DNA from: an uncultured Bacilli bacterium
GTDB lineage: Bacteria > Bacillota_I > Bacilli_A > RF39 > UBA660
Length of the DNA stretch: 45,377 nt
Assembly (NCBI GenBank): GCA_947581765.1
Contig: CANPVU010000011.1
Location: 1 to 45,377, forward strand
Direction: 5' to 3'
This document shows positions 23,805-39,682 of this stretch, piece by piece (position 1 is the first letter of the stretch; every line of letters starts with the position of its first letter). The notes under the pieces are model-generated. The model made no database searches. It was not told the origin of the DNA and saw only the letters and a program-made list of their open reading frames with translations. The translations under genes were made by a program, and so were the position numbers.

Positions 23805-23818
23805 TCTTACACCCCACA

Positions 23819-24487
23819 TCATATTTCATTTACTGAATCTCTATTTTTTATCTTCTGATAAACGTTATATCCAAATATTATAACTGCAATAAAGAATATA
23901 GCTGCAATAACATATAAAACATAATTAATTGTTTTACTTTGGTCTGAAATTTTCATATTAATATTTATATCATTAACATTATCATTATTAATAATCCAAG
24001 TATATGTATTACCCGATACTTTTGTAGCATTATTACTAATAACCTTATTATTAGTTTTTATATTAACTACTAATTCATCACCATATAAACAATAAAATTT
24101 ACCTGTAAAGTTAAGTTGATACCCATTATCTAAGTTATCAAACCTTGCTTTTTCAAAACATGTTTTATATATTTTAGATTTTCTATAATCAGAATGTGAA
24201 TAATTATATTCTAAAGTGACTTGTGTAGTTCCATTATCTTCTTTTATAGTTTTTTTGTATTTTTTATCATCACTATCATCAAATGGATACTGATCATTAT
24301 TTATAAAAGGTGTTATTCGGTCATCTACTTCCGAGATAGAACTTTGTTGAGATGGTATATCCGAATCCAGTATATTTGTTACAATTTTTTCTTTAATTTT
24401 ATTATTACTTAGTTCTAGATTATATTCTGACGAACATCCAGTTAATAGAAATATAGCTATTATTATACTTAACGCTTTCTTCATCAT
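23819..24487 (-). CDS. Membrane-anchored lipoprotein, LppM-like, paralogue of the 21775-22464 product
   Basis: A 222-residue product from the ATG at 24485-24487, chosen because AGGAGG lies seven bases upstream and the longer reading to 24508 runs through that site. Lipobox LLTGC near residue 18, then YNLELSNNKIKEKI. The beta-rich middle part carries NFTGKFYCLYGDELVV and an N-A-T-K-V / Y-T-W pattern, matched in the other lipoprotein. The C-terminus is a membrane segment and a basic tail. The two genes bracket the SpoIID+C39 gene, which suggests one functional unit. Function not known. Confidence 0.75.
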   Translation of the reverse strand: MMKKALSIIIAIFLLTGCSSEYNLELSNNKIKEKIVTNILDSDIPSQQSSISEVDDRITPFINNDQYPFDDSDDKKYKKTIKEDNGTTQVTLEYNYSHSDYRKSKIYKTCFEKARFDNLDNGYQLNFTGKFYCLYGDELVVNIKTNNKVISNNATKVSGNTYTWIINNDNVNDININMKISDQSKTINYVLYVIAAIFFIAVIIFGYNVYQKIKNRDSVNEI

Positions 24488-24498
24488 TATATAACCTC

Positions 24499-27042
24499 CT
24501 AATACCAAGAGCCAAATCCAACTACACTACAACTGTTTAATTGGTAACTGTGTTCTTTGACTGCATTAGATGAATTACCTTCAATAGTATAAACTACTCC
24601 ACCAGATACATTCTTTACAATTCCAATATGACTAACATGCTCTGAGTCTGTTGGCATTGTAGTAAATTTGTTATTCCAATCAAAGAATATTAAGTCTCCT
24701 TCTTTTGGTGTATATGTAGTTCCATCTCCATTTTTACCAGCTAATTTACTACAATTATCATTGTAATAAAACTTCTTATTATTTTGCCCATTTGCTTCAT
24801 AAAAATTATTCATATATTCATAAGTCCATGTACTTTTAAAATTAATTATATCAGATAATTTTGTTCCATTATATTCAGTATTATCTATAACCCATGATAC
24901 AAATGATGCACACCAAGAAAAGTCTCCACATGTTGGACACATATAATTTTTATATTTATCTCCACCTTGAGATGATGGGTCATCTTTTTCTTTTAATGCT
25001 ACGCTAACAAAAGCTTGTGAGATATTATTACTTTTACTACATGCTAAAGAACTATCTCCAGGTCTAGGATTACTAGGATCAACATATTTTAAAGGGTCAA
25101 CTTTATTTGATGAAGTATTTCCTCCATCACGTACCTCAAAATGTAAGTGAGGTCCAGTACTACTTCCACTATGACCTAATTTTGCTATAACTTGACCTTG
25201 AGTTACTTTGTCTCCAGCTCTAACTGTAATACTATTTTGTGCTAAATGCCCATAAAGTGTATAAACATTATCTCCATGATCAATTATTACATAGTTTCCA
25301 TACCCACCGCCATCTTTGTTATTTAAATAACCATTATCCGCAAATCCTGTTTGAGAAGAACTTGTAGGATATACTACAGTTCCAGATTTGGATGCAATGA
25401 CATCAATTTTTCCTGCTCCATAACCAGCAGATGTTATGTCAAGTGCTCCATGACCTTTAATTCTAAAGCCCTCTTTTGAACCAAAATAAGAAGAAATTGC
25501 TATTGATGCTGGTTCACCTTGTGCCAATTTTATACCATTTTCTCCACTTGTTTCTTCAATGCTTCCTATTGGCCACCAAAAAGATTTATTAGCAGATATA
25601 CAACTAAGTGGATCTGTGTTAGATGATTCATCATTTGTATTTCCTTTTAATATTTTTCTATCAATATACTCTAACAAAAATTCATCATATTTATCTTTAT
25701 CTAAAGTATATGTACTTGTAACAGAGTACTTTTGACCACTAGAACAATTTAATCTCTTAGAACCTCCAGCTACTAAATACATATCCTCAACATCTTCATC
25801 TTCTTGAGTTTTAACTACATTTCCACTTCCATTAGTGCAAGTTTGAATAGTCTTCTTTTTTACCATATTTTTTGCTAAAATTTGCAAATCAAATGTAGAA
25901 TCATTAGGCGATAAATATGTATAACCACCTATATTTTTATAATCATTATCCCAATCTAATCCAGATAAAGTGTCATAATCATCTAAAGTTGTTTCGTCAT
26001 ATCCACCTAAATTTGCTTTCATTATTTCTTCTGTAGTCTTAGAAAAATATAAATTTGTAGCACTTATTAAATACCAATCTAAATCAACATTATACTTATT
26101 TTTATATCTTTGTGATAAATCGGCAATTTTTAAATAGTACATAAACTCTGGTCTACTTAAACATGATTTTCCAGTACATTCTTGTTGACTAGAGTATACA
26201 TTTCCTAATTTAGATAATCTCTCATAATATTCCTTTGGATATTTATCGCTACCTTTTCCTACAGCGGACATTCCAACAGAGGAAGTACCCGTATCGCTTC
26301 TAGCTTCATTTATTATTGTAGAACTTTCATCGTCAGAAACCATACCTGCAAGTATCATAGATGAAGCTTTCTCATCATTAAGTGCAACAACAATAGATAG
26401 CAAAAAGAATATTAATACAGCCATTACAGGAGTAATAATTAATATCCATTTTATTGTTTTTAAACTAAATTCAAAACTAATTTCTCCATTTTGATTGTCC
26501 AGTTCTGTTTTCTCATCACTTTTCTCATCTAAAGTTTTTTCAGATTGATTTTTTGCTAATTTTGCTATTTTCTTTGGAGCATCAAGTATATTTGGATTTT
26601 TTTTCATTGCCACTTGGTCTAACATTTTTTGACCAGGCTTAGTTTTTAAAAATTTTTCAGTTGCTTGTGTTGGTACACCTTCTGCTGCTAATGCATACTT
26701 TATTGCTTCTTCAGCAGCTTTTCTTTTTATTTTCTGATATTGAGTAAGTTGATTTTGTTGATTATTTTTATTGTTTGCAGTACTTTTTTTATTATATGAA
26801 CTACTAGTTCCATTTCCTCTTTGATTACTATTAGAATTTAATCCACTAGCAGATTTTCCCTCAGGAGCTCTTTTAGTTAACTTATCTTTGTTTGCATTTG
26901 CTTTAGCCAATGACTCCTGGTTAGCTCTTGTTTGATTAGCTGATATTTTATTATTTTTAGGATCAGATGAACTAATCTTCATATTAGGTGAACTTCCACC
27001 TTGACCTATAGGTATTTTACCACCCATACCACCTTGTGCCAT
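24499..27042 (-). CDS. M23 metallopeptidase plus CHAP amidase/endopeptidase, membrane-anchored
   Basis: An 847-residue cell-wall hydrolase. Residues 1-190 are a disordered Asn/Gln/Ser/Lys-rich cytoplasmic region; one membrane segment at about 194-221 puts the rest outside. A linker domain (about 260-460) is unassigned. The M23 domain (about 510-650) keeps the zinc ligands: His531, Asp535 and HLH at 632-634. The C-terminal CHAP domain (about 700-847) has Cys711 in FSWCASFVSW and His805 in VSHIGIV. This matches the role of VirB1-like hydrolases in Gram-positive type IV systems, which open the wall. AGGTGG precedes the ATG. Cysteines in the linker and near 701-704 may form disulfides. Confidence 0.9.
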   Translation of the reverse strand: MAQGGMGGKIPIGQGGSSPNMKISSSDPKNNKISANQTRANQESLAKANANKDKLTKRAPEGKSASGLNSNSNQRGNGTSSSYNKKSTANNKNNQQNQLTQYQKIKRKAAEEAIKYALAAEGVPTQATEKFLKTKPGQKMLDQVAMKKNPNILDAPKKIAKLAKNQSEKTLDEKSDEKTELDNQNGEISFEFSLKTIKWILIITPVMAVLIFFLLSIVVALNDEKASSMILAGMVSDDESSTIINEARSDTGTSSVGMSAVGKGSDKYPKEYYERLSKLGNVYSSQQECTGKSCLSRPEFMYYLKIADLSQRYKNKYNVDLDWYLISATNLYFSKTTEEIMKANLGGYDETTLDDYDTLSGLDWDNDYKNIGGYTYLSPNDSTFDLQILAKNMVKKKTIQTCTNGSGNVVKTQEDEDVEDMYLVAGGSKRLNCSSGQKYSVTSTYTLDKDKYDEFLLEYIDRKILKGNTNDESSNTDPLSCISANKSFWWPIGSIEETSGENGIKLAQGEPASIAISSYFGSKEGFRIKGHGALDITSAGYGAGKIDVIASKSGTVVYPTSSSQTGFADNGYLNNKDGGGYGNYVIIDHGDNVYTLYGHLAQNSITVRAGDKVTQGQVIAKLGHSGSSTGPHLHFEVRDGGNTSSNKVDPLKYVDPSNPRPGDSSLACSKSNNISQAFVSVALKEKDDPSSQGGDKYKNYMCPTCGDFSWCASFVSWVIDNTEYNGTKLSDIINFKSTWTYEYMNNFYEANGQNNKKFYYNDNCSKLAGKNGDGTTYTPKEGDLIFFDWNNKFTTMPTDSEHVSHIGIVKNVSGGVVYTIEGNSSNAVKEHSYQLNSCSVVGFGSWY

Positions 27043-27063: not shown

Positions 27064-27088
27064 GGAGGATTATATATTATAGTCCTCC
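27064..27088 (-). other. Intra-operon hairpin over the virB4 stop codon
   Basis: GGAGGATTATA (27064-27074) and TATAGTCCTCC (27078-27088) form an 11-bp stem with one wobble or mismatch and a 3-base loop. The virB4 stop codon (27077-27079) is at the loop edge. No U tract follows, so it is not a plain terminator; mRNA processing or stabilisation is possible. Confidence 0.5.
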
Positions 27089-28864
27089 ACCTTTTCCAAA
27101 CGAATCTAATTCTTCGTCTGTTACAACAACATTTATTCTCATACGACGTCCACCACAGACAAATAAAGCTTCACCTTGACCATATTTCTTTATACTTTCA
27201 ATTTCACTTTCATTTAAATCAATTAATCTTGCCAAATCTGTTGCAGCTTGTTTCTTTAATCCCATTACTAAATAGTAAGAAGCATTATCAAATATTGCCT
27301 TACCTTGAGTAATAACTGAAGGATCACAGAAATCTGTTGGTTGTTGTGTAATAATTATAGTACCTGTATTATACTTTCTTGCACGTCTTTGTATTTGTGC
27401 TAAGAAGTCAGCACCTAAAACATTTTGGTTACTTAATAATACATGTGCTTCATCAACAGTTAAAACTGTATTCTTACTTGCATCAAGAGTTAAACTCCAT
27501 GCATATTTAAGTACATTGAAGAATAATGCATTACGTATATTAGCATCAGAATTCATTAATTCTCTTATGTTAAATACTATAAATTCACTATTTGTAGTTA
27601 TTGTTGTATGACCATCAAAATAATATCTTAACTCTTTTACAATTGGTCTTATTTTTAATTCCAATTTCTCCAATATATCTCTTTCTTGAGTACGTTCTGG
27701 CATAGAAAGAAGTTTTCCTTTTAAAGTAGCATATACATCTTTAAAAGTAGGATAATCTTTTGAAGTCAACCTTGTAAAGTCTGTTTCAAAACTAATATTA
27801 AAACGTCTATATGTTTCTTGAACTATTTCACTAAACATATTTAGTACATCTTCTTCAATTGTTGGATCATAATATTTTAAAAATGCTTTTAAAGATTGAA
27901 TAGTTCTAGTAAATGTTGTATATCCTAATCCTTGTTTTATTTCTTCCTCATCTACATCCATTACTACTTCAAGTGGATTAATCATACCAAATTGTCCACC
28001 TTTACCAAGGCTAATGAAATCTCCACCATAAAGATTACACATATCCTCAAGTTCACCTTCAGGATCTATTACTACCAATTGATAATTATTTCTTATATGT
28101 GATCTTAGTAATAATTTAGCAGCAGTTGATTTACCACTACCAGATGTACCTAAAATAATCATATTTGCATTATTTCTATTATGTTCTTTTCTTATTTGAT
28201 ATAAAAATTGATTAAATAAGATTACTCCTCCAGAAAAATCAATACCAAGTAATGTAGATAATCCTGGGTCTTTAATACTATCGAAAATAAAAGGATACAT
28301 AGCAGCCATTGTAGGTGCTGGAATTGGAGTTCCTATTCTATCTTCAATATCTTGTTTATCGTATATTGGAAGCATAGATTTTAAAACTTTATCTTGCTCA
28401 AATCTTAAAGGTATAGCTTTCATTTCCATTGCTTCTAAATAATTTTTTAACTGTAATTTTTTTACCACTAATTCATCTTGAGAATTTGCAGTAATCATTA
28501 TATGCATTTGAAAATCATATATTTTAGACTGAGAAGCTGCAAGTTCAGATATGAATTGCTCTAAAGATGCATAATCTTGTTTAATTCTCTCTTGTATAGT
28601 TTTATCATTTTCCTCTTGATATCTAACTTTTAAGTCAGCTATTTCTTTATTAAGCATTTTTTGAATAGTACTAAAAGGAAGTGGTATATGTTTAATAACA
28701 AGTTTTATACCTGCCATAGATGTTAAAGATGATAGATATCCTGGATAAATATATTTTGGATAACTAATAACAGTTAAAATAGTTGCATACTTATCACTTA
28801 TTACAAACTCAGAAGGTTTAAATTCTAACCCTTTTGGAGCTATTTGACTCTTAATATCTATCAT
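27077..28864 (-). CDS. VirB4/TraE-type secretion ATPase
   Basis: Cytoplasmic ATPase that powers assembly and transport in type IV systems. 595 residues: an N-terminal VirB4-type domain (about 1-200) and a RecA-like ATPase core with Walker A GTSGSGKS at 239-246, VVIDPEGE around 264-271, and DEAH at 471-474, followed by the RRARKYNTGTIIITQQP stretch. It overlaps the previous gene in an ATGA arrangement, so translation is coupled. It resembles VirB4 proteins of Gram-positive integrative elements. Confidence 0.93.
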   Translation of the reverse strand: MIDIKSQIAPKGLEFKPSEFVISDKYATILTVISYPKYIYPGYLSSLTSMAGIKLVIKHIPLPFSTIQKMLNKEIADLKVRYQEENDKTIQERIKQDYASLEQFISELAASQSKIYDFQMHIMITANSQDELVVKKLQLKNYLEAMEMKAIPLRFEQDKVLKSMLPIYDKQDIEDRIGTPIPAPTMAAMYPFIFDSIKDPGLSTLLGIDFSGGVILFNQFLYQIRKEHNRNNANMIILGTSGSGKSTAAKLLLRSHIRNNYQLVVIDPEGELEDMCNLYGGDFISLGKGGQFGMINPLEVVMDVDEEEIKQGLGYTTFTRTIQSLKAFLKYYDPTIEEDVLNMFSEIVQETYRRFNISFETDFTRLTSKDYPTFKDVYATLKGKLLSMPERTQERDILEKLELKIRPIVKELRYYFDGHTTITTNSEFIVFNIRELMNSDANIRNALFFNVLKYAWSLTLDASKNTVLTVDEAHVLLSNQNVLGADFLAQIQRRARKYNTGTIIITQQPTDFCDPSVITQGKAIFDNASYYLVMGLKKQAATDLARLIDLNESEIESIKKYGQGEALFVCGGRRMRINVVVTDEELDSFGKGGGL

Positions 28865-29415
28865 GATAACACCGTCCCAAACTCAGTAGTAACTCCTCCG
28901 TTTAAGAAGTTATCTAGAATCATTCTAAGATCATCATTTGTTGTTTGAAATGCCGTCAAACCAGCATTTGCAAAGTTATTTATCAAATTTCTAATTCGCT
29001 TATTAATAACATCGTCATTCTTCTCTTTAAATAATAGGAAATACTCTGTATCAACTACATTATTATTCATAAACATATTTGCCTTACTAAGATCTTGGTT
29101 GATAATCTTTCTTCTAGATGGATCAGAAGTTTTATTATATAAAAGCTCTAACTCAGATAAATATACATTAATATCTACTGGTCTATCTGCTACTATAATC
29201 CAAAATTCATAATCAATAACATTATAAACAGTCTTTAAATTAGTTATAATTGCACTTTGCATATTAGGATCAAGAATAAATATATTTCTTGGCATAATCT
29301 TTACTCCTGTAACCTTTAAATTTTGTCTTCCCTCTAAGTATATTACTCCATTAGTAATTCCTTTTATAGGAATATCATCATTTGTATACTTACTTTTTGT
29401 TGTTTTCGTCGCCAT
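28861..29415 (-). CDS. TraC-like/VirB4-associated protein
   Basis: A soluble protein of about 184 residues from the ATG at 29413-29415; a longer reading to 29469 is possible since neither start has a strong ribosome site. The order of strands and helices (NGVIYLEGRQ, KIMPRNIFILDP, then FWIIVADRPVDI) resembles the N-terminal domain found in some VirB4/TraC ATPases. Here it is a separate gene that overlaps the PrgI gene at its start and virB4 at its end by four bases. It likely works next to VirB4 at the membrane base. Confidence 0.6.
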   Translation of the reverse strand: MATKTTKSKYTNDDIPIKGITNGVIYLEGRQNLKVTGVKIMPRNIFILDPNMQSAIITNLKTVYNVIDYEFWIIVADRPVDINVYLSELELLYNKTSDPSRRKIINQDLSKANMFMNNNVVDTEYFLLFKEKNDDVINKRIRNLINNFANAGLTAFQTTNDDLRMILDNFLNGGVTTEFGTVLS

Positions 29416-29710
29416 CTTTAATACACCAACCTTTCCATACATACTGTTGTCTAGTTGTATAAAATTCATATGCTAATCCTATTATCGTTCTAATATTATG
29501 ATAGTTAGGAATAGGTATAACAAGTACACCTGTTATTACTCCAGGAGCAAGAGCTATAATAGCAAATATCAAGCTCTCTACTGGAAGTATTATAAGTAAT
29601 AATAATGAAATACCTACCCCTATACCAAACATAATTAAATCAAACTTATTAAATATTCCGAATATTAACATAGATTTTTTTGAATTAGCAGGTATTAAAT
29701 ACTCGTTCAT
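29390..29710 (-). CDS. PrgI-family (VirB3-like) membrane protein
   Basis: A 106-residue protein with the typical PrgI plan: short N-terminus YLIPANSKKS, two close membrane segments (about 27-43 and 46-66), then PIPNYHNIRTIIG and an aromatic region. PrgI/VirB3 proteins connect VirB4 to the membrane channel. Its place just before the VirB4 genes is the usual one. Confidence 0.85.
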   Translation of the reverse strand: MNEYLIPANSKKSMLIFGIFNKFDLIMFGIGVGISLLLLIILPVESLIFAIIALAPGVITGVLVIPIPNYHNIRTIIGLAYEFYTTRQQYVWKGWCIKDGDENNKK

Positions 29711-29730: not shown

Positions 29731-31875
29731 TTATTTCTTTTGTCCTGAATTAGTATATTTTGAAGTATTATTAATTGTTCTATTTGCTTGATTTGTTTCA
29801 ACAGATTGTTGAGAACCAAGTGCTTGATTTCTAACAGCTTTAATATCTCCAGTGGTTCCAGAAATATTAGTTGAAACCTCTTGATATCCTTCAATTGATT
29901 TTCCTTCTTTATTCATTGCAGATGCTAATCCTTCCATATGAGTTGCAATATTTTGAAGAGCAGCATTTGGATCTGTACTTGAAGTAACTGTAAAACTTCC
30001 TAGATTATATGTTCCATCAGCATTTACTATTGTGGCAGCATCTTCCCTATGATCGGAAGAAACATATCCACCTCTTTGAGCTATTTCTTTTATACGTTGA
30101 TCAAATGCAGTATTCCATCTTTTAGCCTCTGCATAATCACCAGATGATTCTGCTGCTTTTCTACGTTTATCAAAATCTTTTGCCAAAGAGTCTACTCCAG
30201 CTGCTGTTGACTCGTAAGATTTATAATCATCTTGAATTGCTTTCAAGCCTTCAGTAACACCTTTTAATCTATCTGCTTTAGTTCTCATATTTAATGTATT
30301 TCGTACGTTTTCTCCAAACACATCGCCTCTTGAAACACCATCTGCATCCATTTCTCGTAATTGTCTATGGCGTTGGCGTCCAGCACTATATGAGTTAGCA
30401 AAGTTTTTACCAAACTTATCTCCTTTCCATCCACCTTGAATAGCAGATGCAAATGCTTTTCCATGTATTCCTTGTCCAGTTAATAATCCAGCTCCAGCAG
30501 CAACTGCTCCTACTCCTATTCCACCTGCAACACCAAGTGCTTTCCTACTAGCTCCAGCAATTTGTTTGCCGCCTATAGCTTCTTCTTCTATCTTCTTTAA
30601 TGGATTAAGTTGAAATTTACCATCACCTTTAACGTTAAATACTTCTTTAAGAATATCTGGTAATTTCTTTATAAACATAAGAACACCTAATATCATAAAT
30701 ACCATTACAAGTAGACCATCTACAGTCTCACCAGTTTCAATATCTTTAAAAGTTCCTAATAAAGAAATTATATATATACCAAAATAAAGTGCAAATAAAC
30801 GAATAAATAAATCTAAATAAGTTTTAACACTCATATCCATCCACTTTTTAAACATACCATCTTTTGAAGATTTTGGATCACAATATGAAATAATTGGTAT
30901 AGGTGCTATCATCTGTAAGAATCCTAATTTTATTGAACGAACTGCAATATCTATACAGAATAGTAAAAACAAATATAAAGTTCCAACTCCTACAGCAGTA
31001 CTAATTCCAAATTTATAATCAACTAAATATCTTCCATCATCCAACTTAGCTAATATTACTTCTTTTCTAAAGAAAAGTGAAAAACTTTGTTGTGCTACTC
31101 CTTGTGCATAATTTTGATATGCAACATCAGCATCAATCCCCTTAAATGCTTGATACAATGTTCCATTTTCTCCAGAAGCCTCATAAGAATCATTTTCAGC
31201 ATTATACACTCCCCAACATGATGGCCTTAATTCATATATAAAACTTGACAAAGATGATGAATCTGTACTATCTGTATTACCTTCAAAAACTGGTTTCAAT
31301 CTAAACTTAAATTGTCCATTCTCATCAGTGTCATATGTTTCCTTACAATCTATTAAATCATATGTAGATGCATCATTTGCAAAATCATCATAGTTAGGAT
31401 GAGCAAATGCGTAAAGTAACGTAAATTGAATTTTCTTACCTGCCGATTCGGTATAACTGCTATTAGCAGCCCTAGGCGACTCAGCGCTTGGTGCACCAAA
31501 TACTAAATTCATTATAGTATTTTCTCTTAATATAATTGACTGTAAATCATATGCCTCTTGAAAAATATATGGGACAAGTACAACTAATACTAAAGATAAA
31601 ACTACATGTTTAATAATTGAACCAAACCCTTTTTCTTTATCTGTAAAATCATCTGGATTTAATATGTAATTAATTATTGATACAGATACTTTAAAGAGCA
31701 TAAATATTCCAACAAGTGCATATACACGTTTTGAAAATTCATGTATAACATCTTGATCAAATATTGTTGTCCTTGTCAACTGTAATAAAAGACCATAAAC
31801 ATCATCAATTAAACCAAAAACTACTTTATCTAATGAAAAGAAAAGAGTTCTTAGCATGCTTATTAAGAAATCCAT
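29731..31875 (-). CDS. VirB6/TrbL-like polytopic channel protein
   Basis: A 714-residue polytopic membrane protein. Hydrophobic segments cluster at about 55-115, around 290-320, 350-375 and 385-405, with a large soluble loop (about 130-280) between the second and third groups, presumably outside. The last 290 residues are soluble: a Gly/Ala-rich stretch near 445-475, then a charged, mostly helical tail with Asn/Ser at the end. VirB6/TrbL proteins form the inner-membrane channel. Assignment rests on topology, size and neighbours. Confidence 0.8.
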   Translation of the reverse strand: MDFLISMLRTLFFSLDKVVFGLIDDVYGLLLQLTRTTIFDQDVIHEFSKRVYALVGIFMLFKVSVSIINYILNPDDFTDKEKGFGSIIKHVVLSLVLVVLVPYIFQEAYDLQSIILRENTIMNLVFGAPSAESPRAANSSYTESAGKKIQFTLLYAFAHPNYDDFANDASTYDLIDCKETYDTDENGQFKFRLKPVFEGNTDSTDSSSLSSFIYELRPSCWGVYNAENDSYEASGENGTLYQAFKGIDADVAYQNYAQGVAQQSFSLFFRKEVILAKLDDGRYLVDYKFGISTAVGVGTLYLFLLFCIDIAVRSIKLGFLQMIAPIPIISYCDPKSSKDGMFKKWMDMSVKTYLDLFIRLFALYFGIYIISLLGTFKDIETGETVDGLLVMVFMILGVLMFIKKLPDILKEVFNVKGDGKFQLNPLKKIEEEAIGGKQIAGASRKALGVAGGIGVGAVAAGAGLLTGQGIHGKAFASAIQGGWKGDKFGKNFANSYSAGRQRHRQLREMDADGVSRGDVFGENVRNTLNMRTKADRLKGVTEGLKAIQDDYKSYESTAAGVDSLAKDFDKRRKAAESSGDYAEAKRWNTAFDQRIKEIAQRGGYVSSDHREDAATIVNADGTYNLGSFTVTSSTDPNAALQNIATHMEGLASAMNKEGKSIEGYQEVSTNISGTTGDIKAVRNQALGSQQSVETNQANRTINNTSKYTNSGQKK

Positions 31876-31892: not shown

Positions 31893-33017
31893 TTATTTAG
31901 CACAGAATGGATTAGTTGGATCCAATCCAGGAATATCGAATATTGCTAAAATGAAATCAAGAACAAATGGTATTAAGAATAATAGTACAGCAGCTATTAA
32001 TCTTTTTGTAAATCTACCTGTTACTTTTTTCATTTCATCGTCGCTTTCAGAAGCTATCGCTTTTATAAATTCTAATATACTTAGAATTACTATTAGTGCA
32101 GGGACTGAATATCTTACAATTCTTACTAATCTAAATAACCACTGAGTAGATTCTCTACCTAGTGACCCACAACTACCAAATTTTGTAGACTCATCTTTAC
32201 ATATCGATGCGATATCATCATTTAACATAGTGCAAGCCTTACTACATGCTTTAGCAACTATTTCAGAGCCTTCATCTTTTGCATACATAGATGTCGCTCT
32301 ATACGACTCACATACAGAAGAAAGATTTTGATATAATCTAGAAAATTCTGGATTATCATCACAAGACTTAGAATCACTTGCATCAACTGCTTTTTTTATT
32401 TCATTCAATGTACTAGAATAAGTAACACAATTATATTGGTCTATTAAATCTTTATTACTTATATCCTTACTTCCTTCTTCTATTAAATCATATTCTGCTG
32501 TTAAATCTTCTTTAAGGTCTTTGTTCCATACCTCTACTTCATTAATATTAGTCTCATCTAATTCATCGTTGTATATCATATAATGAAATAAATACCAAAG
32601 GTCACCTTCTACATAAGTTTTAAGTTTTAATACTGGTGGACATTCACCCTTTAAATTATTATATACAGTTTCATTAGGGTATAATGATAAATAAATTTGT
32701 ACTGTATAATCAGCGCCAAAATTTGGACGTTCTACATCTCCAGTATATTTATAAACCTGTCCAGTAACCTCTTTAAAATTAGTGATTGGAACTTCAAATT
32801 CATCTTTTATGAAATTAGATTTTCCAGCATCTATATGAGCATTATTGTATGCTCCTGATACATTTATAACAAATCTTTGTTTCCAAGTTGATGCATCATC
32901 GCCAGTTCTTATACCATATGAACATACTATATTATCTCCAACAGCAGCATGTACTACTTTTATATTAAAAATAAATGCAAATAATATACTAGCAAATATT
33001 AAAAGTTTTTTTCTCAT
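31893..33017 (-). CDS. Secreted protein ending in a diverged TrbC/VirB2-like module
   Basis: A 374-residue product. A signal peptide (cleavage likely after VVHA, about residue 24) leads to a cysteine-bearing beta-rich domain beginning CSYGIR with a later ECPPVLKLKTYVEGD. A second region with six or more cysteines follows (about 195-280). The C-terminal 92 residues form a two-helix membrane hairpin (DDEMKKVTGRFTKRLIAA as the cytoplasmic loop) like the five other modules of the cluster, though more diverged. The outer domain shares its CY and CPP pattern with the product at 36089-37378. It heads the second transcript of the cluster behind an extended -10 promoter. Confidence 0.7.
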   Translation of the reverse strand: MRKKLLIFASILFAFIFNIKVVHAAVGDNIVCSYGIRTGDDASTWKQRFVINVSGAYNNAHIDAGKSNFIKDEFEVPITNFKEVTGQVYKYTGDVERPNFGADYTVQIYLSLYPNETVYNNLKGECPPVLKLKTYVEGDLWYLFHYMIYNDELDETNINEVEVWNKDLKEDLTAEYDLIEEGSKDISNKDLIDQYNCVTYSSTLNEIKKAVDASDSKSCDDNPEFSRLYQNLSSVCESYRATSMYAKDEGSEIVAKACSKACTMLNDDIASICKDESTKFGSCGSLGRESTQWLFRLVRIVRYSVPALIVILSILEFIKAIASESDDEMKKVTGRFTKRLIAAVLLFLIPFVLDFILAIFDIPGLDPTNPFCAK

Positions 33018-33051
33018 ATAACACCTCTATAAAAGACAATCTATCATTTCT

Positions 33052-33060
33052 ATTATATCA
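33052..33060 (-). promoter_or_regulatory. Extended -10 promoter for the downstream secretion operon
   Basis: TGATATAAT on the minus strand (TGnTATAAT), placed right after the terminator of the 131-residue pilin-like gene and about 35 bases before the next start. The -35 region is only a T tract. Confidence 0.5.
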
Positions 33061-33063
33061 AAA

Positions 33064-33088
33064 AAAAACTATTAAATAAATAGTTTTT
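33064..33088 (-). terminator. Terminator after the 131-residue TrbC/VirB2-like gene
   Basis: AAAAACTATT pairs with AATAGTTTTT (33064-33073 with 33079-33088), followed by further Ts on the minus strand. It begins four bases past the stop codon. Confidence 0.85.
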
Positions 33089-33091
33089 GTA

Positions 33092-33487
33092 TTATAATCC
33101 AGTATTTTGACCAGATTGCAATCTACATGAATTTTCTCCCACTGTTCCATTAACAAAGCAATTGAAACAACTTACTACATTATCATCTTCACCCGAAACA
33201 AATGTTATAACTAATCTAACAAGAGCTATTACAAAGAATACAATAATTGCAGCTATAACTCTTTTGATAAGTGTTTGTTGTCCTTTTTTTATTTCATCTT
33301 CTTTTTGAGCCATTACAGCTTTAGCCATATCCAAAAGTCCAAATATTACAAGTAGAATTGGAACAACAACTTCTATAATAACTATTATTAAATGTACTAC
33401 ATTAGGTATCATACCACTAAAACTTATACCTATATTCCCACATTCATAAACGGCATTTGTGTTAATAGCATCCAAAACATTAATCAT
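33092..33487 (-). CDS. TrbC/VirB2-like pilin candidate, monocistronic
   Basis: A 131-residue protein made of the module alone and, unlike its paralogues, without a cleavable-looking signal peptide. Pattern: Cys16-Gly17, first membrane helix (about 30-53), cytoplasmic loop AQKEDEIKKGQQ, KR then the second helix (about 72-94), and a C-terminal part with cysteines (SCFNCF and a later NSC). TrbC/VirB2 proteins are the pilus subunits of type IV systems. It has its own consensus promoter and a terminator, unlike the other five module genes, which makes it the best candidate for a major subunit. Confidence 0.8.
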   Translation of the reverse strand: MINVLDAINTNAVYECGNIGISFSGMIPNVVHLIIVIIEVVVPILLVIFGLLDMAKAVMAQKEDEIKKGQQTLIKRVIAAIIVFFVIALVRLVITFVSGEDDNVVSCFNCFVNGTVGENSCRLQSGQNTGL

Positions 33488-33511
33488 TTTTCTTCCTCCT
33501 CAACTACAATA

Positions 33512-33541
33512 ATTATACTATACAACGCATATTTTTGTCAA
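33512..33541 (-). promoter_or_regulatory. Consensus SigA promoter of the 131-residue pilin-like gene
   Basis: Perfect TTGACA (33536-33541) and perfect TATAAT (33512-33517) on the minus strand, 18-base spacer. AGGAGG lies close before the ATG. Confidence 0.8.
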
Positions 33542-33546
33542 TTAAT

Positions 33547-34701
33547 TTACTTTTTACTACTACCAAGTACATATGGATCTTTTTCAGTTCCATTTCCACT
33601 AATATATTTTTCAAAGCCATTAAAAGCGATTACCCAATTATAATTGGCAGATTTTCTTGCTTGCATAGCAGTAGCCTGACCACTATTTATACTTATTGCT
33701 TCATATGTATTGTCATTAACTGCTGAAGTAGTCCAACTCTCATGTAAGAATAATGACATATAATTATAATTATTACATGCTCCAGTAACAATACTGTTAC
33801 AATTTTCATCCAAAGAAGCTCTTGCAAAATCTGAACTACTTATTAATGAAATATACTGTCCATCAAGCACATCTGAACAATCAATATTTCTATCCAAATT
33901 CAAATTACTTTTATCTCTTTTTCCTATACAAACACTAAATGGTGTCAAATGTAATTTTGATTCATCCTTAAACTTTGCATACTCACTATTTAGTTTTTCT
34001 AATATTAGACTATTCTTATAATCATTTATTCCATATGATTTATTTACTTCAACATTATATTTAGTATCCCAATAATATCCTCTATCTTCAGCTTCTGATT
34101 TAACAACTCTAATTACTCCTGATGAATTTATATCTATTATTCTCCAAACAAATCCACCAAAAGATAAATAATTATTTGGATTTTTTCCTTTAAATACATA
34201 AGTACCATTATCATCATATAAACCAGATAAATAATCTTTACTACTTGTGCTTTGTGAAGTATCATCAGATGTACTATTATCATAATTAGATTCCACTAAA
34301 TTATCCTCTATTATCTTATCCGATAAATGCAATGTACTATATTCAGAACATTTTAAATCTGGAATAATTAAATATTGACCACCATTATTGTATATATTTA
34401 CACTTGCTGTACACGAAGTATCTTTTAAATAACTAGATAATCCTTTCATATACCCTTCCTCAGCTAGCGTAGTAGCACTAACTGTATCAAAATTAGAATT
34501 ACTAGGTACTTTATCTTCGTTATTCTTATAATATTTTTTTGCAGCATCTACTAATTTCTGCTCAACCTTATCATAATCTTCTCCTGGTTTATCACAAGAT
34601 CTAGCAAGTGCTACTATTACTATTATCAAAACAAGTACAATAAATATTCCGGCAACTATCATTAAATATTTTTTATCAATTTTTTTTAAAGCTTCACTCA
34701 T
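33547..34701 (-). CDS. Pseudopilin-like anchored surface protein
   Basis: A 384-residue protein with a short cytoplasmic start, one membrane helix (about 13-33) that continues into a helical stretch (LVDAAKKYYKNN), then a cysteine-bracketed region (Cys at about 97 and 118) reminiscent of pseudopilin ectodomains. The C-terminal half has a pattern common in secreted Firmicutes proteins: FGGFVWRIIDIN, SGVIRVVKSE, and a closing GNGTEKDPYVLG. No prepilin cleavage site is obvious. It is the last gene of the upstream transcript. Precise role unknown. Confidence 0.6.
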   Translation of the reverse strand: MSEALKKIDKKYLMIVAGIFIVLVLIIVIVALARSCDKPGEDYDKVEQKLVDAAKKYYKNNEDKVPSNSNFDTVSATTLAEEGYMKGLSSYLKDTSCTASVNIYNNGGQYLIIPDLKCSEYSTLHLSDKIIEDNLVESNYDNSTSDDTSQSTSSKDYLSGLYDDNGTYVFKGKNPNNYLSFGGFVWRIIDINSSGVIRVVKSEAEDRGYYWDTKYNVEVNKSYGINDYKNSLILEKLNSEYAKFKDESKLHLTPFSVCIGKRDKSNLNLDRNIDCSDVLDGQYISLISSSDFARASLDENCNSIVTGACNNYNYMSLFLHESWTTSAVNDNTYEAISINSGQATAMQARKSANYNWVIAFNGFEKYISGNGTEKDPYVLGSSKK

Positions 34702-34715
34702 CTAAAACACCCCAA

Positions 34716-35126
34716 CTAGCTAGCACATGAAGAGTCATTTGCACCATTAAAGAAATAACATGCACATGACATAATATTGTTACTATCAGTACTTACAGCA
34801 CTTATTACAAGTTTAACAAGTGCTATTACAAAGAAAACTAGCACACCTGCAATAAGTCTTTTTATAAATACTTGTTGTCCTTTTTTTATTTCATCTTCTT
34901 TTTGCGCTACAAGTCCCTTTACTAAATCTATTGAACCAAAAACAACAAGTAAAATTGGAACTGCAATTTGAATAACTTTAATTACAAGACTAACAGTATT
35001 TGGAATGCTATCATCAATTACTACATCTCCTAATACATCTCCGCAAACATCTGCAGATACATTTGGTATAAATGCAAATAACCCAATAAATGCAATTATA
35101 AAAATTGGTAATATTTTCTTTTTCAT
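34716..35126 (-). CDS. TrbC/VirB2-like secreted pilin paralogue (136 aa)
   Basis: Signal peptide with likely cleavage after VSA (about residue 25), then CGDVLGD, first membrane helix with PILLVVFGSIDLVKG, loop AQKEDEIKKGQQ, second helix and a Cys-containing end (SCACYFF, then SSC). Of all the copies it is closest to the consensus of the modules. Gaps to neighbours are about 15 bases. Fourth in the run of small module genes. Confidence 0.8.
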   Translation of the reverse strand: MKKKILPIFIIAFIGLFAFIPNVSADVCGDVLGDVVIDDSIPNTVSLVIKVIQIAVPILLVVFGSIDLVKGLVAQKEDEIKKGQQVFIKRLIAGVLVFFVIALVKLVISAVSTDSNNIMSCACYFFNGANDSSCAS

Positions 35127-35141
35127 ATCTAATCACTCCTA

Positions 35142-35561
35142 TCAACAACTCATATCATTTGGATTCTGCTCTTCAATAAAACAATTAACACAAGTCATAA
35201 TATCTTTTCCATTGCCTGTTGATACAGCACTTATTAAAAGCTTTACGACTGCTATAACAAAGAATATTAACACACCTGATACTAGTCTTTTAACAAATAA
35301 TTTTCTAGAACTTGCCATTTCATCTTCTTTCTGTGCTATTACACCCTTTAATAAATCTATTGATCCTAATACCACTAATAATATAGGTACAGCAATCTGT
35401 ATTAATAATATAACATATCTAACTATTTTTGCAAGCTGATAATCAATATAAATGTCATCGCCTAATGCTTCACACTTAAATTGAGCAGCAAAAACATCCT
35501 GTTGAAATCCTAATAATACTATAAATATAAATATATATATCAATACTTTTTTTAACTTCAT
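35142..35561 (-). CDS. TrbC/VirB2-like secreted pilin paralogue (139 aa)
   Basis: Start at the ATG 35559-35561, with AGGAG just upstream; the longer reading to 35582 covers that site and the end of the previous gene. Signal peptide ends near VFAA. The module follows: PILLVVLGSIDLLKG, a changed loop (AQKEDEMASSRKLFVKR in place of the IKKGQQ type), second helix, and TCVNCF with a final Cys. The altered loop sets it apart from the other copies. Confidence 0.8.
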   Translation of the reverse strand: MKLKKVLIYIFIFIVLLGFQQDVFAAQFKCEALGDDIYIDYQLAKIVRYVILLIQIAVPILLVVLGSIDLLKGVIAQKEDEMASSRKLFVKRLVSGVLIFFVIAVVKLLISAVSTGNGKDIMTCVNCFIEEQNPNDMSC

Positions 35562-35571
35562 AATAAATCTC

Positions 35572-36084
35572 CTAACTACCACTCATTGGTGTACATGAAT
35601 CACTATCTATAAAGCATTCAACACAATTTAGTATTTTACTAGAACTTCCAGTTATAGATGCAAGAGCACTAACAAAAAATTTAACAATTAATACTATAAG
35701 AAAAATTATTATACCAGTAATCAACCTCTTAGTAAAAGCATCTCTTCCTTTTTTTATTTCATCATCTTTTTGAGACATTAAACCTTTTACTAAATCTATT
35801 GAGCCCATAACTATTAATATAATAGGAACAAGCACCATTATTATATTGTAAACAGATGTAGTAATATTAGGAATAATGGAAGGTATTCTTTTAATTATAG
35901 GACTTGAACCACCACAACTCACATATTGATCAACCGCCATAAACTTTGCATTTGGAACAGTAGACGTTTCATTAGATACATTTGATGAACTTGTAGTATT
36001 AGAATCCACTGCATAAACAGTTGTAATATTAAGTGTTAAAAAAGTAATTACAACAAATAATATCTTAAAAAATCTAAATTTCAT
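35572..36084 (-). CDS. TrbC/VirB2-like secreted pilin paralogue (170 aa)
   Basis: Start at the ATG 36082-36084 with GGAG upstream. Signal peptide (cleavage after about VYA), a Ser/Thr/Asn-rich spacer of about 25 residues, then CGGSSP, helix one with PIILIVMGSIDLVKG, loop SQKDDEIKKGRD, helix two and NCVECF with a closing Cys. The spacer would hold the module away from its N-terminus or be a processing region. Confidence 0.8.
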   Translation of the reverse strand: MKFRFFKILFVVITFLTLNITTVYAVDSNTTSSSNVSNETSTVPNAKFMAVDQYVSCGGSSPIIKRIPSIIPNITTSVYNIIMVLVPIILIVMGSIDLVKGLMSQKDDEIKKGRDAFTKRLITGIIIFLIVLIVKFFVSALASITGSSSKILNCVECFIDSDSCTPMSGS

Positions 36085-36088
36085 ATCA

Positions 36089-37378
36089 TCACTCCAAAAC
36101 ACAACTATCACTAAATCTTAATATGCAATCTACACAAGATAATATATCTGTACTATCTGTAGCAACTACACTTACTAAAAGTTTAACGATTGCGAATACA
36201 AAGAATATTAATACAGCACCAATCAATCTTTTTATAAATGTTTGTTGACCTTTTTTGATTTCATCCTCTTTTTGTCCAGCAATCGATTTAACTAAATCTA
36301 TTGAACCCAATATAATTAAAGTGAGTGGAACTAAAATTTGAATAAAATTATATATAAAACGTCCTGTTTTTGGAAAAGCAGATGGAATATCAGTCATTAA
36401 ACCTCTTCCACAGCTATATGTATATAAACTATAATCAAGATTTCCAACATTACTATTTATTTCAGGATCATCATATTCTGGTTTAGGTTTATTAGAATTT
36501 GATTCTTTAGTAGAATCATCTGGTATAATTGTTTCTTTACATGTTAATGTAAATATAGTTCCCTTATTATTTGTTCCATTTAATCTAATTCTTTCTTTCA
36601 AATCAGAAAGATTAGCTTCATCACTAAGTACAACATAAAGTGCTCCTAATGTTCCTGTTTGTTTAATAACAGCATACTCAGAACAAGAATTATCCTTACT
36701 ATATTGATTTAAAAAAGTATAACTATTTTTACCACTACCTTTTGCATAACCTTCTGACCAATTTAAAATAGGCTCGTTATTTGTTTTATCTCCTATTTTT
36801 ATATCTACTCTTTCTGCAGATCTATTATCATTTATACTATATACAAATGATGCTTTTCTACCATTTGAACTTCCACTACAAGCGCAACTTTTATTGGTAG
36901 TTGTTGTAACACCAGGTGTATCTTCTGACGAATCTCCATGTGCAGCACTACCATCTGATTGGCTTATAAGATTATAAGTATCATATTTTGAGCCCGGAAG
37001 GTTTGCTTTATCTTTTGCATATGCCTTTACATCACTCTTATGATCTTCATCAGTAAAATAAACATCGTTATCACCAATAGTATACCTAGCTAAAATAATC
37101 ATTGGTGGACACTGTTTACCATTATCCATAAAATAATTATAGCCACTAAATCCTTTTACTTCCTTACTCCAATTAATTATATCACCATGAAAACTTCCAG
37201 ATACTTTACTAGCAGTACCATAACTAGCATCAATACTTATTACAATACTTTTATCGCCATAGTCATATACGCAATTCTTTGCAACAGAAGATTCATCTTT
37301 TTTTGCCTCAACTTTATTAATACTTAAAAACACGACAAAAACTATTAATAAAATAGTTTTCGTTATTTTTTTACTCAC
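36089..37378 (-). CDS. Large surface protein ending in a TrbC/VirB2-like module
   Basis: A 429-residue product. GTG at 37376-37378 is chosen because GAGGTGA lies upstream. A signal peptide (about 1-25) is followed by two similar beta-rich repeats: the first with CVYDYGDKS, WSKEVKGFSG and QCPPMIILARY; the second with CSGSSNG, WSEGYAKGSG and SCSEYAV. A Pro/Asn-rich stretch leads to a complete C-terminal module (from about 318): CGRG, GSIDLVKS, GQKEDEIKKGQQ, SCVDC. So this may be a fibre tip, adhesin or base protein anchored by a VirB2-like hairpin. First of the module genes in transcription order. Confidence 0.75.
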   Translation of the reverse strand: MSKKITKTILLIVFVVFLSINKVEAKKDESSVAKNCVYDYGDKSIVISIDASYGTASKVSGSFHGDIINWSKEVKGFSGYNYFMDNGKQCPPMIILARYTIGDNDVYFTDEDHKSDVKAYAKDKANLPGSKYDTYNLISQSDGSAAHGDSSEDTPGVTTTTNKSCACSGSSNGRKASFVYSINDNRSAERVDIKIGDKTNNEPILNWSEGYAKGSGKNSYTFLNQYSKDNSCSEYAVIKQTGTLGALYVVLSDEANLSDLKERIRLNGTNNKGTIFTLTCKETIIPDDSTKESNSNKPKPEYDDPEINSNVGNLDYSLYTYSCGRGLMTDIPSAFPKTGRFIYNFIQILVPLTLIILGSIDLVKSIAGQKEDEIKKGQQTFIKRLIGAVLIFFVFAIVKLLVSVVATDSTDILSCVDCILRFSDSCVLE

Positions 37379-37406
37379 AATCATCACCTCACGATTATAT
37401 TAACAC

Positions 37407-38423
37407 TTATCTAGCCTGTAAATCAAACCCTAATCTAATCAAAAAGTCGTTCATTAATTTATTTTTCTTTTCTCTCTCATCTAATGGTGGCATATTATAG
37501 AACACTTTCAACTTAGACTCATACTCAAAATCTAAGACATCTTTTGAACTTAATAAACTTTGATTCAATATAACCTTTTTACCCTTTAATTTTTTTAGTG
37601 ATTGTGGTGTAACCATCATTAATTTATTTAATTTTATAGTAGTTGGTTCAATTATATATATTACTTCATTACATAAAGATTCAGCCTGAACACTATTATT
37701 AACATCAATTAATATAACATCACAAGTAGTTAAACTTGCCACCTCTTGCATTATTGTACCACTAATTGCAGAAATTAGCGAGTTATCATTAAAATATGAA
37801 AAATCAGTCTTATCAACTTCTATTGCAGCAACTCTATAATTACGAGCAAGCTCATTAAACATCATATATGTAAAAGTTGTAGCACCTGAGTTCTTAGTAA
37901 CATTCTTTATTCCAATAATATGACTATGTTCTCTTGGAGCTGGAGCAGGCGCTGGTGCTTGTATAAAATGCTGAGTTGGTGCTTGCTGTACAGGTTGTTC
38001 GATTGGTGCTTGTTGCATAGGTTGAGGTATAACTACCACTTCATCTATTTGATGGAACTGCGCTACATCACGATATGAATTTGGATGATTATATAGATAT
38101 TGTAATCCTTCCATATTACGTGTAAAGTTATATATTCCCATTGAAATTAATTTTGACAAATACGCTGGTGAAGAACTTTCTGGTGATTCATCCAATAACA
38201 ATATAACTTTATCCATATCAAGTGATATAGAAAGTTTTTGTAAATTTCTAATATCCTGATAATTTCTAATAGCAGTTATATCTAGAATCATTCTTTGATA
38301 AAAGAAATTTTGAAAAGTACTTATAATTTCTTCTACATCAAATTCACCATTCATACTCTTAATTACATCTATACCTAAATTTTCTAACATTGATTGATAT
38401 TTATTAGCAACTATAACATTCAT
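37407..38423 (-). CDS. TadZ/CpaE-like protein with degenerate P-loop
   Basis: A 338-residue protein. The N-terminal part (about 1-130) looks like a receiver-type fold without a clear phosphorylation pocket. A Gln/Pro/Ala-rich linker (about 133-170) is followed by a ParA/MinD-like ATPase fold: GIKNVTKNSGATTFTYMM is in the place of the Walker A motif but lacks the canonical GKT. VILIDVNN and VIYIIEPTT match later strands. TadZ/CpaE proteins position pilus machines at the cell pole. Its place directly after the TadE-like pair supports that reading. ATP hydrolysis is doubtful. Confidence 0.65.
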   Translation of the reverse strand: MNVIVANKYQSMLENLGIDVIKSMNGEFDVEEIISTFQNFFYQRMILDITAIRNYQDIRNLQKLSISLDMDKVILLLDESPESSSPAYLSKLISMGIYNFTRNMEGLQYLYNHPNSYRDVAQFHQIDEVVVIPQPMQQAPIEQPVQQAPTQHFIQAPAPAPAPREHSHIIGIKNVTKNSGATTFTYMMFNELARNYRVAAIEVDKTDFSYFNDNSLISAISGTIMQEVASLTTCDVILIDVNNSVQAESLCNEVIYIIEPTTIKLNKLMMVTPQSLKKLKGKKVILNQSLLSSKDVLDFEYESKLKVFYNMPPLDEREKKNKLMNDFLIRLGFDLQAR

Positions 38424-38439: not shown

Positions 38440-38934
38440 CTATATTCCTATATTATCATATAATACTTTTGTTTCACCCATTACTGGAAAATTCAACATA
38501 CCTCCAATTAATGGTATTTCAAATCTCATATATGCAACAACTTGATAATAACTACCAATGGATGAAGATTTTTTTATTATACAATATTCATAATTTCTAT
38601 TATTACTAAAATCTTCATCAAGTGGATATAAAACTGTTCCACCATTTTTGGTAGCAATATTATTACATTTACCTACTAGTCCTACATCTTTTGTAACTGT
38701 TTGATATCCGGCTTTAACTAAATTTTCTTTTATTTCATTAAGTTCATCAGTAGCATCCTCTCGTTCATTATTATCTGCAGGATATCCACCATATTTTTCA
38801 ATTGTAGTAATTAATCTATTTTTAGTTTTATAAGCTTTAGAATAATTAATTGAACCGAAAAAAAGTAAAACTAAAATAACAAAAAAGAATAAAATTAAGT
38901 TTACTATAAAAGCTTGTCCAATTGCCTCTTTCAT
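38440..38934 (-). CDS. TadE-like single-pass pilus protein (164 aa)
   Basis: N-terminus MKEAIGQAF, then one long membrane helix (about 10-32) and a Lys/Tyr-rich helix (NYSKAYKTKNRLITTIEKYGG) and an outer domain with cysteines (KCNN, YCII). Architecture as in TadE/TadG minor pilins. Paralogue of the next gene upstream: the segment YSKAYKTKNRL here matches YYKAYRVNNSI there, both followed by IEKY. AGGTGAG precedes the ATG. Confidence 0.65.
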   Translation of the reverse strand: MKEAIGQAFIVNLILFFFVILVLLFFGSINYSKAYKTKNRLITTIEKYGGYPADNNEREDATDELNEIKENLVKAGYQTVTKDVGLVGKCNNIATKNGGTVLYPLDEDFSNNRNYEYCIIKKSSSIGSYYQVVAYMRFEIPLIGGMLNFPVMGETKVLYDNIGI

Positions 38935-38954: not shown

Positions 38955-39467
38955 TTAACTACATGTTTTATTACCAAATTCTTCGCACGATTGTATAAAA
39001 TCATATATTCTATTAGTTTTAGACGAAACACGTAATTTTAATATATCCTGTATAACTGGAAATTGAAAAGTAATTATTGTTGTTACTTCATATGAATTAT
39101 ACCAATCTGTATTTGGAACATCTTTTGGCATATCTTTACTTCTTAAATATATACAATATCCACTATACCCTTTATTGTTATTAGTTACACCAGTATCAAC
39201 ACCATTAACGTTAACTAATTTAGCAGTTCCCCTAGTTGTTGGACAATTAAAATTATCTGCAACATAACCTAAGTTTCTTAATTTAATATTAATTTCATCT
39301 ATTGATAAATTATTAACACCTTCATATTTTTCAATTGCAGCTACTATAGAATTATTTACTCTATATGCTTTATAATAACTAAATGTTCCCATAAGAAAAG
39401 CAAAAACTAAAAATATAAAAAATATTACAAAATTAAGTAGTGAAACCGTACCTATACTTTCTCTCAT
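38955..39467 (-). CDS. TadE-like single-pass pilus protein (170 aa)
   Basis: N-terminus MRESIGTVS, a membrane helix (about 9-30), YYKAYRVNNSIVAAIEKYEG, then a domain with cysteines (NCPTT, YCIYL, and a final SCEEFGNKTC). Paralogue of the following gene. It is the first gene of the large minus-strand cluster as it stands, with a strong promoter 50 bases upstream and GGAGG before the ATG. Confidence 0.65.
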   Translation of the reverse strand: MRESIGTVSLLNFVIFFIFLVFAFLMGTFSYYKAYRVNNSIVAAIEKYEGVNNLSIDEINIKLRNLGYVADNFNCPTTRGTAKLVNVNGVDTGVTNNNKGYSGYCIYLRSKDMPKDVPNTDWYNSYEVTTIITFQFPVIQDILKLRVSSKTNRIYDFIQSCEEFGNKTCS

Positions 39468-39580: not shown

Positions 39581-39682
39581 AGATTATATTTGAAAGTGCA
39601 CAGAAGTTGTGAAACAAGATTTATAAACAAGAATAATATCTTTCAAGCAATTTATTTGTCATACGAAGGAGGTATAAATACT

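Follow-up and report, generated by a model that had tools for sequence, protein, structure and literature searches.

The type IV secretion systems (T4SSs) of Patescibacteria possess 441 reported arrays of 2–11 VirB2-like pilins, whose genes follow one another directly or are interrupted by a non-pilin gene (PMC12102498, PMC12857230). Six pilin genes are present in the essential array of Ca. S. epibionticum ML1, and Ca. N. lyticus TM7x provides another example (PMC12102498, PMC12857230). PF18895 (T4SS_pilin) served to find these genes and the arrays were interpreted as pilins (PMC12102498). Among single-membrane bacteria, such arrays have so far been reported only in Patescibacteria. A 2025 review of T4SSs states that VirB2 is absent from Gram-positive T4SSs, with Patescibacteria as the sole exception (PMC12857230). 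The Trw T4SS of Bartonella has multiple copies of trwL/virB2 and trwJ/virB5 (PMC2610397). The virB2 cluster of Anaplasma phagocytophilum has 8–15 copies, of which the arrangement is largely conserved between strains and each product has a signal peptide and two hydrophobic helices (PMC3556328).

The window analysed in this work is a stretch of 45,377 nucleotides from an uncultured Bacilli bacterium (RF39; UBA660). It has six pilin-like genes (31893-37387, minus strand) within a T4SS locus. The locus resembles those of Patescibacteria in its monoderm host, small genome, chromosomal T4SS of MPF_FATA kin, general lack of a relaxase, and several divergent pilins; this likeness is one of features, and position-held orthology was measured in the Bacilli set. 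It differs from them in its host class (Bacilli), in copies that often have large ectodomains, in a VirB4 encoded by two ORFs, and in the VirB11/TadA-family ATPase, CpaB-like, and TadZ-like genes that adjoin the array in relatives (the ATPase gene is elsewhere in this genome). The locus shares tandem pilin paralogs and diverging surface components with Bartonella Trw, but the latter is diderm, has a recognised TrwL/VirB2, and lacks the coupling protein (PMC2610397) that is present here. Anaplasma, which likewise has many paralogs, is also diderm (Rickettsiales) with a recognised VirB2, and large ectodomains are not described in the available part of that report (PMC3556328). The VirB4, VirB6, and coupling protein match the Mbov_0397/CD1110/CD1115 families, as in the T4SSs of Mycoplasma/Clostridia ICEs. 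Unlike those elements, this locus has no relaxase, a split VirB4, and multiple pilin-like genes, and is chromosomally fixed.

We interpret the products of the six genes, with a probability of roughly 0.6, as pilin-type subunits that are ancient paralogs and belong to a resident, relaxase-less, chromosomally inherited monoderm T4SS (MPF_FATA/Mycoplasma-ICE-like) that would assemble as proposed below.

Layout of the locus

The array sits between the TadZ-like gene and the VirB6/PrgI/split VirB4 genes (Table 1), and all six pilin-like genes lie where the preliminary description had placed them. Better starts were identified for the 179-aa ORF (ATG 36084) and the 146-aa ORF (ATG 35561). The copies do vary in signal peptide, spacer, and outer domain, as had been described, except that a signal-like N-terminus, as judged by hydropathy, is present in five of the six copies and absent from m131. 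The orthologs of m432 at the same position have 435 aa (L059), 493 aa (L060), and 387 aa (L061). The x384 gene has 28 copies longer than 300 aa across 81 loci (window counted in), and searches for a family or solved relative gave nothing more than a weak DUF6273 hit with one of its orthologs.

Table 1. Coordinates of the pilin-like array and the surrounding T4SS genes in the window.
Feature	Coordinates	Strand	Description or basis
VirD4-like coupling protein	19555..21762	-	NF045973 (CD1115 family) 299 bits, over cut-off; PF02534 4.5e-56
SpoIID-domain and C39-like peptidase protein	22473..23822	-	PF08486, PF13529
M23 and CHAP cell-wall hydrolase (VirB1-like role)	24499..27042	-	PF01551, PF05257
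Split VirB4, C-terminal ATPase part	27077..28864	-	NF045975 8.2e-103, profile 294-891; PDB VirB4-like 4ag5 3.8e-61
Split VirB4, N-terminal part	28861..29469	-	NF045975 2.2e-13, profile 96-276
PrgI/VirB3-like small membrane protein	29390..29710	-	Position (conserved in relatives) and size; insignificant NF045975 N-terminal match
VirB6/TrbL-like membrane channel protein	29731..31875	-	PF19597 28.6 bits, over cut-off; NF045848 5.5e-10
m374	31893..33017	-	Divergent (type B) module with signal peptide, ectodomain, and Cys-rich helical linker
m131	33092..33487	-	Bare module, no signal peptide
x384	33547..34701	-	Membrane-anchored protein without module; seventh, partner gene within the array
m136	34716..35126	-	Signal peptide, bare module
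m146	35142..35561	-	Signal peptide, module
m179	35572..36084	-	Signal peptide, short spacer, module
m432	36089..37387	-	C-terminal pilin-like module with signal peptide and two outer domains that contain Cys; adjoins TadZ-like gene
TadZ-like gene	37407..38423	-	No profile match; name based on position and appearance
Two short pseudopilin-like genes	38440-38934, 38955-39467	-	Hydrophobic N-terminus; conserved position; no family match

The VirB4 scored 344.8 bits with NF045975 (cut-off 590), the protein being split. The VirB11/TadA-family ATPase matched the profiles of VirB11 (3.6e-33) and the TadA family (1.4e-26), and the CpaB match had an E-value of 1.4e-4. The putative TadB and TadC did not match any Pfam family. 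The names of the putative TadB, TadC, and TadZ therefore rest on position and size.

The shared module and its nearest family

The ORFs, BLASTP, and alignment agree with the original description of six related two-helix modules in one locus. BLASTP among the five products other than m374 gave E-values of 1e-37 to 1e-18, the pairs involving m374 gave 2e-11 to 3e-7, and the alignment of the six modules has 10 invariant columns. These E-values and the invariant charged and Cys positions rule out a chance likeness of hydrophobic hairpins. The module consists of two hydrophobic helices and a short charged loop by hydropathy, and the model of m136 (pLDDT 80) has helices at residues 40-74, 77-111, and 116-127. 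The Cys before helix 1 is conserved in 148/153 and the Cys after helix 2 in 153/153.

The motif that had been ascribed to all six copies (GSIDLVKG...QKEDEIKKGQQ) is exhibited by five. The divergent m374 carries SILEFIKAIASESDDEMKKVTGRF in its place and has a single C-terminal Cys. It groups with relatives from other loci in a clade of its own that branches deeply (support 100/100; elsewhere 46 rows, support 0.965). This type is homologous to the other copies by profile comparison (99.7%, E 1e-26).

The module most resembles PF18895, of which the curated cut-off is 26.6 bits. All window copies are below this cut-off: m179, m432, m374, and m131 have E-values of 0.00024-0.011, m136 has 0.86, and m146 has no PF18895 match. 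The score of m179 is 21.5 bits and the best window copy in the six-frame search reached 23.9 bits. At E<=0.01, PF18895 is found in 31 of the 73 relatives (best 6.7e-7), and no other family is matched as often. The modules had been described as TrbC/VirB2-like. They are T4SS pilin-like and lie in a T4SS locus, but direct membership in TrbC/VirB2 (PF04956) is not supported by the profiles or by hhalign, which found no kinship. PF04956 did not match any window copy at E<=10 or anything in the same genome, and is not among the 25 families most often matched by the 73 relatives. The hhalign probability of the module profile against R388 TrwL is 0.1% (TrwL set of three sequences).

The Foldseek hits of the m136 model include no VirB2 pilin, the two-helix hairpin being a poor query. 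Its Foldseek and VIA-align hits are unrelated two-helix proteins (Z <=6.4, receptor transducer) and are uninformative. The hits of the m374 model are likewise uninformative; this model has pLDDT 66 and a poorly predicted ectodomain (means 24-44 at residues 51-100). The PDB sequence search by module profile gave chance hits only.

Distribution and mobility

The array is shared across the bacterial family instead of being confined to this genome. The module is present in 130 of 145 genomes of the family and almost nowhere else in the phylum, with 1-6 copies per complete locus. The preliminary description regarded several copies as unusual for type IV loci. This is partly contradicted, since multiple copies also occur across this bacterial family as well as in those of Patescibacteria, Bartonella, and Anaplasma (PMC12102498, PMC2610397, PMC3556328). 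The same gene order was found on 80 named contigs.

The profile search of this genome and its relatives found no relaxase linked to the locus. Both PF03432 and PF02486 are absent from this genome. PF03432 is present in 14 of 98 relatives (21 matches), where one match is on the same contig as a resident VirB4 (G008:C14, ~71 kb apart) and one is on a contig with an orphan module (G057:C5, ~17 kb). A Mob_Pre relaxase lies on contig C16, beside a serine recombinase and ~13-15 kb from the CpaB-like gene.

The locus might be a decaying or captured ICE with extra copies that have no selected function, and the VirB4 and coupling protein do belong to MPF_FATA-type ICE families (CD1110/CD1115/Mbov_0397). 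This origin is highly improbable. The locus has no nearby relaxase, VirB4 is present in 119/141 genomes, mostly as one intact orthologous copy, and rmuC-rnr-smpB are recurrent chromosomal neighbours, fixed in many loci. VirB4C is also strongly conserved among loci (77-95% identity), and a few genomes have, as distinct matches of ~370 bits, VirB4s that are unsplit and have the size typical of ICEs (785-804 aa).

We found no paper in the open-access literature on an array of this kind in RF39-like Bacilli. The review names Patescibacteria as the only Gram-positive exception for VirB2, and the present Bacilli lineage looks like another. If a pilin array is indeed inherited vertically across this family, it would be a second Gram-positive case, in a class with many cultivable bacteria. 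It could then be tested why gut bacteria with reduced genomes retain a T4SS that has no relaxase, and whether the pilin paralogs hold fixed places in one structure.

Phylogeny of the copies and their outer domains

On the tree, the position label changes 12 times, compared with 54 or more changes in each of 500 shuffles, whereas the locus label requires 97 changes against a shuffle mean of 91. The position clades are supported by 100/94, 100/99, and 100/100. The orthologs of m131, the best-conserved copy, form one clade (23 rows, 100/94), and m179 forms a clade with its orthologs in L059 and L060 (100/99). The copies cluster by position and not by genome and are thus old, separately maintained paralogs. 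The tree speaks against recent lineage-specific amplification, except that m146 is a clade-local duplicate of m136 (52% identity over full length). The comparison of modules that the preliminary description proposed accordingly yields homologous, ancient, and position-specific copies with m374 apart, and such copies are what a differentiated, ordered assembly would require.

The copies adjoining x384 are bare, and ectodomains come and go at the outer positions. At pre-x384 position 1 (the place of m136), 24 of 25 loci have a bare copy. The N-extension ranges from 16 to 288 residues at positions 2-3, and exceeds 330 in all three loci having position 4. The copies might instead be an alternative set that is expressed or varied to alter the surface facing hosts, phages, or immunity, as for Bartonella trwL and Anaplasma virB2 (PMC2610397, PMC3556328). 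The fast divergence of the ectodomains agrees with this, as the identity between the window and L059 is 95% for VirB4C but 73% for m131, 49% for m179, 45% for m374, and 44% for m432. Orthologous copies also gain or lose ectodomains (179 aa in the window and 270 aa in L060). However, positions are fixed, lineages are separate without genome-wise clustering beyond m136/m146, and the packing of the genes into one tight operon points to co-expression. We consider an alternative set unlikely.

Proposed assembly

The interpretation as pilin-type subunits of one resident T4SS builds on the observed homology, gene order, position-specific orthology, lack of a linked relaxase, and positional rules of the outer domains. 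The six diverged genes in fixed order suggest a pilus or channel of specialised subunits, and the copies may co-assemble in an order, possibly as the heteropolymeric or tip-to-base ordered fibre of the preliminary description. Each module may form a membrane hairpin whose two ends face outward and whose charged QKEDEIKKGQQ-KR loop faces inward. Together, probably, with the VirB11/TadA-family ATPase, which relatives encode upstream, VirB4 would extract or assemble the hairpins above the VirB6 channel. The bare m131 and m136 may be common or base subunits, and the copies with ectodomains (m432, m374, and sometimes the m179 orthologs) may be minor subunits that serve as cap, stud, or anchor. The product would be a short surface pilus or a cell-wall-crossing conduit for contact with other cells, for which exchange of protein or of nutrient/DNA seems likelier than self-transfer.

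A broader proposal can be advanced tentatively. This family of small-genome gut Bacilli may have a near-universal, single-copy, non-conjugative T4SS with a heteropolymeric pilus or conduit of position-specific pilins, outer subunits whose outer domains can be exchanged, and a motor of the VirB11/TadA type, and so constitute a second monoderm T4SS-pilus lineage besides Patescibacteria.

Modules away from the pilin context

Orphan modules fused to GDSL/SGNH hydrolase were identified at orphan loci (L156 6504-7649; L055) and show that the module can also act as an anchor outside the T4SS. This, the PF18895 scores below cut-off in the window, the lack of kinship to TrwL, and the absence of a VirB2 pilin from the Foldseek hits count against the pilin interpretation. 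These fusions would also fit a generic two-helix membrane platform that docks to the VirB6/VirB4 channel and bears adhesive or cell-wall-active outer domains, with no filament formed. The type B copy, found beside VirB6 in many loci, usually adjoins it in the small ones, the VirB6 N-terminus weakly matches PF18895, and no structural match to solved pilins was obtained, all of which are compatible with such a platform. It is nevertheless quite unlikely, because PF18895 is the leading family match of the relatives, most copies are small and bare, with no domain for such a platform to bear, and similar arrays in Patescibacteria are interpreted as pilins (PMC12102498). A link between the VirB6 N-terminus and the module was rejected, as hhalign gave only 0.5% beside the weak PF18895 match. 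Two more modules are present outside the array in the same genome (C20:21208-21606 and C17:2502-2903).

Shared two-helix module

Six genes in a single tight run on the minus strand of contig C11, part of a 37-contig draft genome of 1.22 Mb, encode a module of two hydrophobic helices and a charged loop. The five type A copies (m432, m179, m146, m136, and m131, numbered by amino acid length) share 35-61% identity in BLASTP. The type B copy, m374, is more remote (24-36%), yet its matches are significant. The preliminary description of six related modules in one locus is thus borne out, as BLASTP is significant for all and the six-copy alignment has 10 invariant columns. These columns include VP in helix 1, the K, D, and E flanking the loop, KR ahead of helix 2, and a cysteine behind it. 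Type A modules exhibit a cysteine ahead of helix 1 (148/153) and at least one behind helix 2 (153/153). The cysteine pairs fit a predicted intramolecular clamp outside the membrane.

The modules had been described as TrbC/VirB2-like. Profile searches gave no PF04956 (TrbC/VirB2) match in the window copies, in this genome, or among the commonest families of the relatives. Comparing the module profile with R388 TrwL and two relatives gave no detectable similarity; the layout is alike nonetheless. PF18895 (T4SS_pilin) matches the window copies weakly, under the family cut-off, and is the most frequent family among 73 small relatives (31 at E<=0.01, best 6.7e-7). The label pilin-like is therefore well founded, while TrbC/VirB2 holds only by analogy.

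Distribution and history of the copies

Within this bacterial family, 130 of 145 genomes carry the module and 119 of 141 a matching VirB4. Twelve genomes in a phylum-wide sample had matches, ten of them from this family; the matches in the remaining two are weak and broken by stops. A public genome collection yielded at least 524 encoding stretches, and the labels on the 80 retained are uncultured Bacilli, Bacillales, Tenericutes, Erysipelotrichaceae, or similar. Gene order is kept across loci and frequently terminates at rmuC-rnr-smpB, which marks the system as resident on the chromosome.

Modules ahead of VirB6 were counted in 55 loci having TadZ-like and VirB6 genes. One module was found in 2 loci, two in 22, three in 7, four in 19, five in 2, and six in 3, these last being the window and its two closest relatives within the named set. 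The six copies are real and form the top of this range; other loci of this family also hold several copies.

Copies cluster by position in the 99-row tree, with clades for m131-type (23 rows, support 100/94), m374-type (12 rows, 100/100), and m179 with its counterparts at L059 and L060 (100/99). Position requires 12 changes in a larger tree versus at least 54 across 500 shuffles, and locus identity shows no clustering. The deepest split separates types A and B. Only m136 and m146 look like a local duplication within the array. The module regions of an adjacent type B pair in another locus (401 and 412 aa) are identical, so the pair seems recently duplicated.

Neighbouring genes

Features of the array, its neighbours, and related loci
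Feature	Location	Strand	Remark
Gene run	39467-19555	-	
VirB6/TrbL-like protein	downstream of array		profile match
PrgI-like protein	after VirB6/TrbL-like		downstream
VirB4 N-terminal ORF	28861-29469	-	NF045975 positions 96-276
VirB4 C-terminal ATPase ORF	27077-28864	-	NF045975 positions 294-891
M23/CHAP hydrolase	downstream of VirB4		
SpoIID/C39 protein	beyond M23/CHAP hydrolase		downstream
Two putative lipoproteins	before coupling protein		downstream
CD1115-family coupling protein	downstream end of listed genes		
x384	33547-34701	-	membrane-anchored
IS30-like fragment, unrelated genes	39590-45377		upstream of array
Type B pair	L062:4386-6991		
Mob_Pre relaxase	L163:7729-11379, beside serine recombinase		contig C16
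Orphan module	L156:6504-7649		contig C20
Orphan module	L157:2466-3119		contig C17

The VirB4 ORFs overlap (27077-29469), and the split is present throughout the named relatives. ICE-type VirB4s within the same family are unsplit (785-804 aa).

Loci of relatives add upstream a CpaB-like gene, an ATPase whose nearest families are VirB11 and TadA, and a pair of conserved membrane proteins at the TadB and TadC positions. These genes lie away from the array in this genome, on C16, which stops at the ATPase start, and C37, which carries the ATPase through TadC. An IS30-like fragment and unrelated genes stand upstream of the array instead, and the displacement is therefore a rearrangement or an assembly join.

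No relaxase is linked to the array, and profile searches found neither PF03432 nor PF02486 in this genome. One Mob_Pre relaxase adjoins a large serine recombinase and lies about 13-15 kb away from the CpaB-like gene. The pair looks like a separate mobilisable element, which might employ the type IV system in trans.

Proposed function and outer domains

The products are most likely subunits of a single pilus or conduit that crosses the envelope. The data establish homology, genomic context, synteny, orthology by position, and the lack of a linked relaxase; that a filament forms, how its subunits are ordered, and what cargo it carries are what we infer. Bare copies would be common subunits and decorated copies minor or terminal ones, with the VirB4 system, possibly helped by a VirB11/TadA ATPase, assembling them. 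Pilin arrays have been reported in type IV loci of Bartonella (PMC2610397) and Anaplasma (PMC3556328). The nearest known case is Patescibacteria, in which a count gave 441 arrays of 2-11 genes and epibiotic growth requires a six-pilin array (PMC12102498, PMC12857230). A review names Patescibacteria as the sole exception among Gram-positives having VirB2 (PMC12857230). The Bacilli case, known from genes encoding pilin-like modules, looks like a second monoderm lineage, here with decorated subunits.

The copies on either side of x384 are bare. Ahead of it, positions 2 and 3 are either bare or ectodomain-bearing, and position 4, when there, is ectodomain-bearing. Identity to L059 declines from 95% (VirB4 C-terminal part) to 73% (m131) and 44% (m432), as expected for a conserved motor and a fast-evolving surface. 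The x384 protein itself, encoded within the array, is strongly conserved, is without a recognised family, and was found in 28 loci, chiefly those with at least three modules; most two-module loci lack it.

The module is also a carrier, because orphan modules outside the locus bear GDSL/SGNH domains. The two orphans of this genome have near-identical pilin parts and different C-termini, and one is fused to a GDSL/SGNH hydrolase. Another genome (G057) carries a tandem of four large module-bearing genes, and an SGNH-like domain is present in at least one of them (L055).
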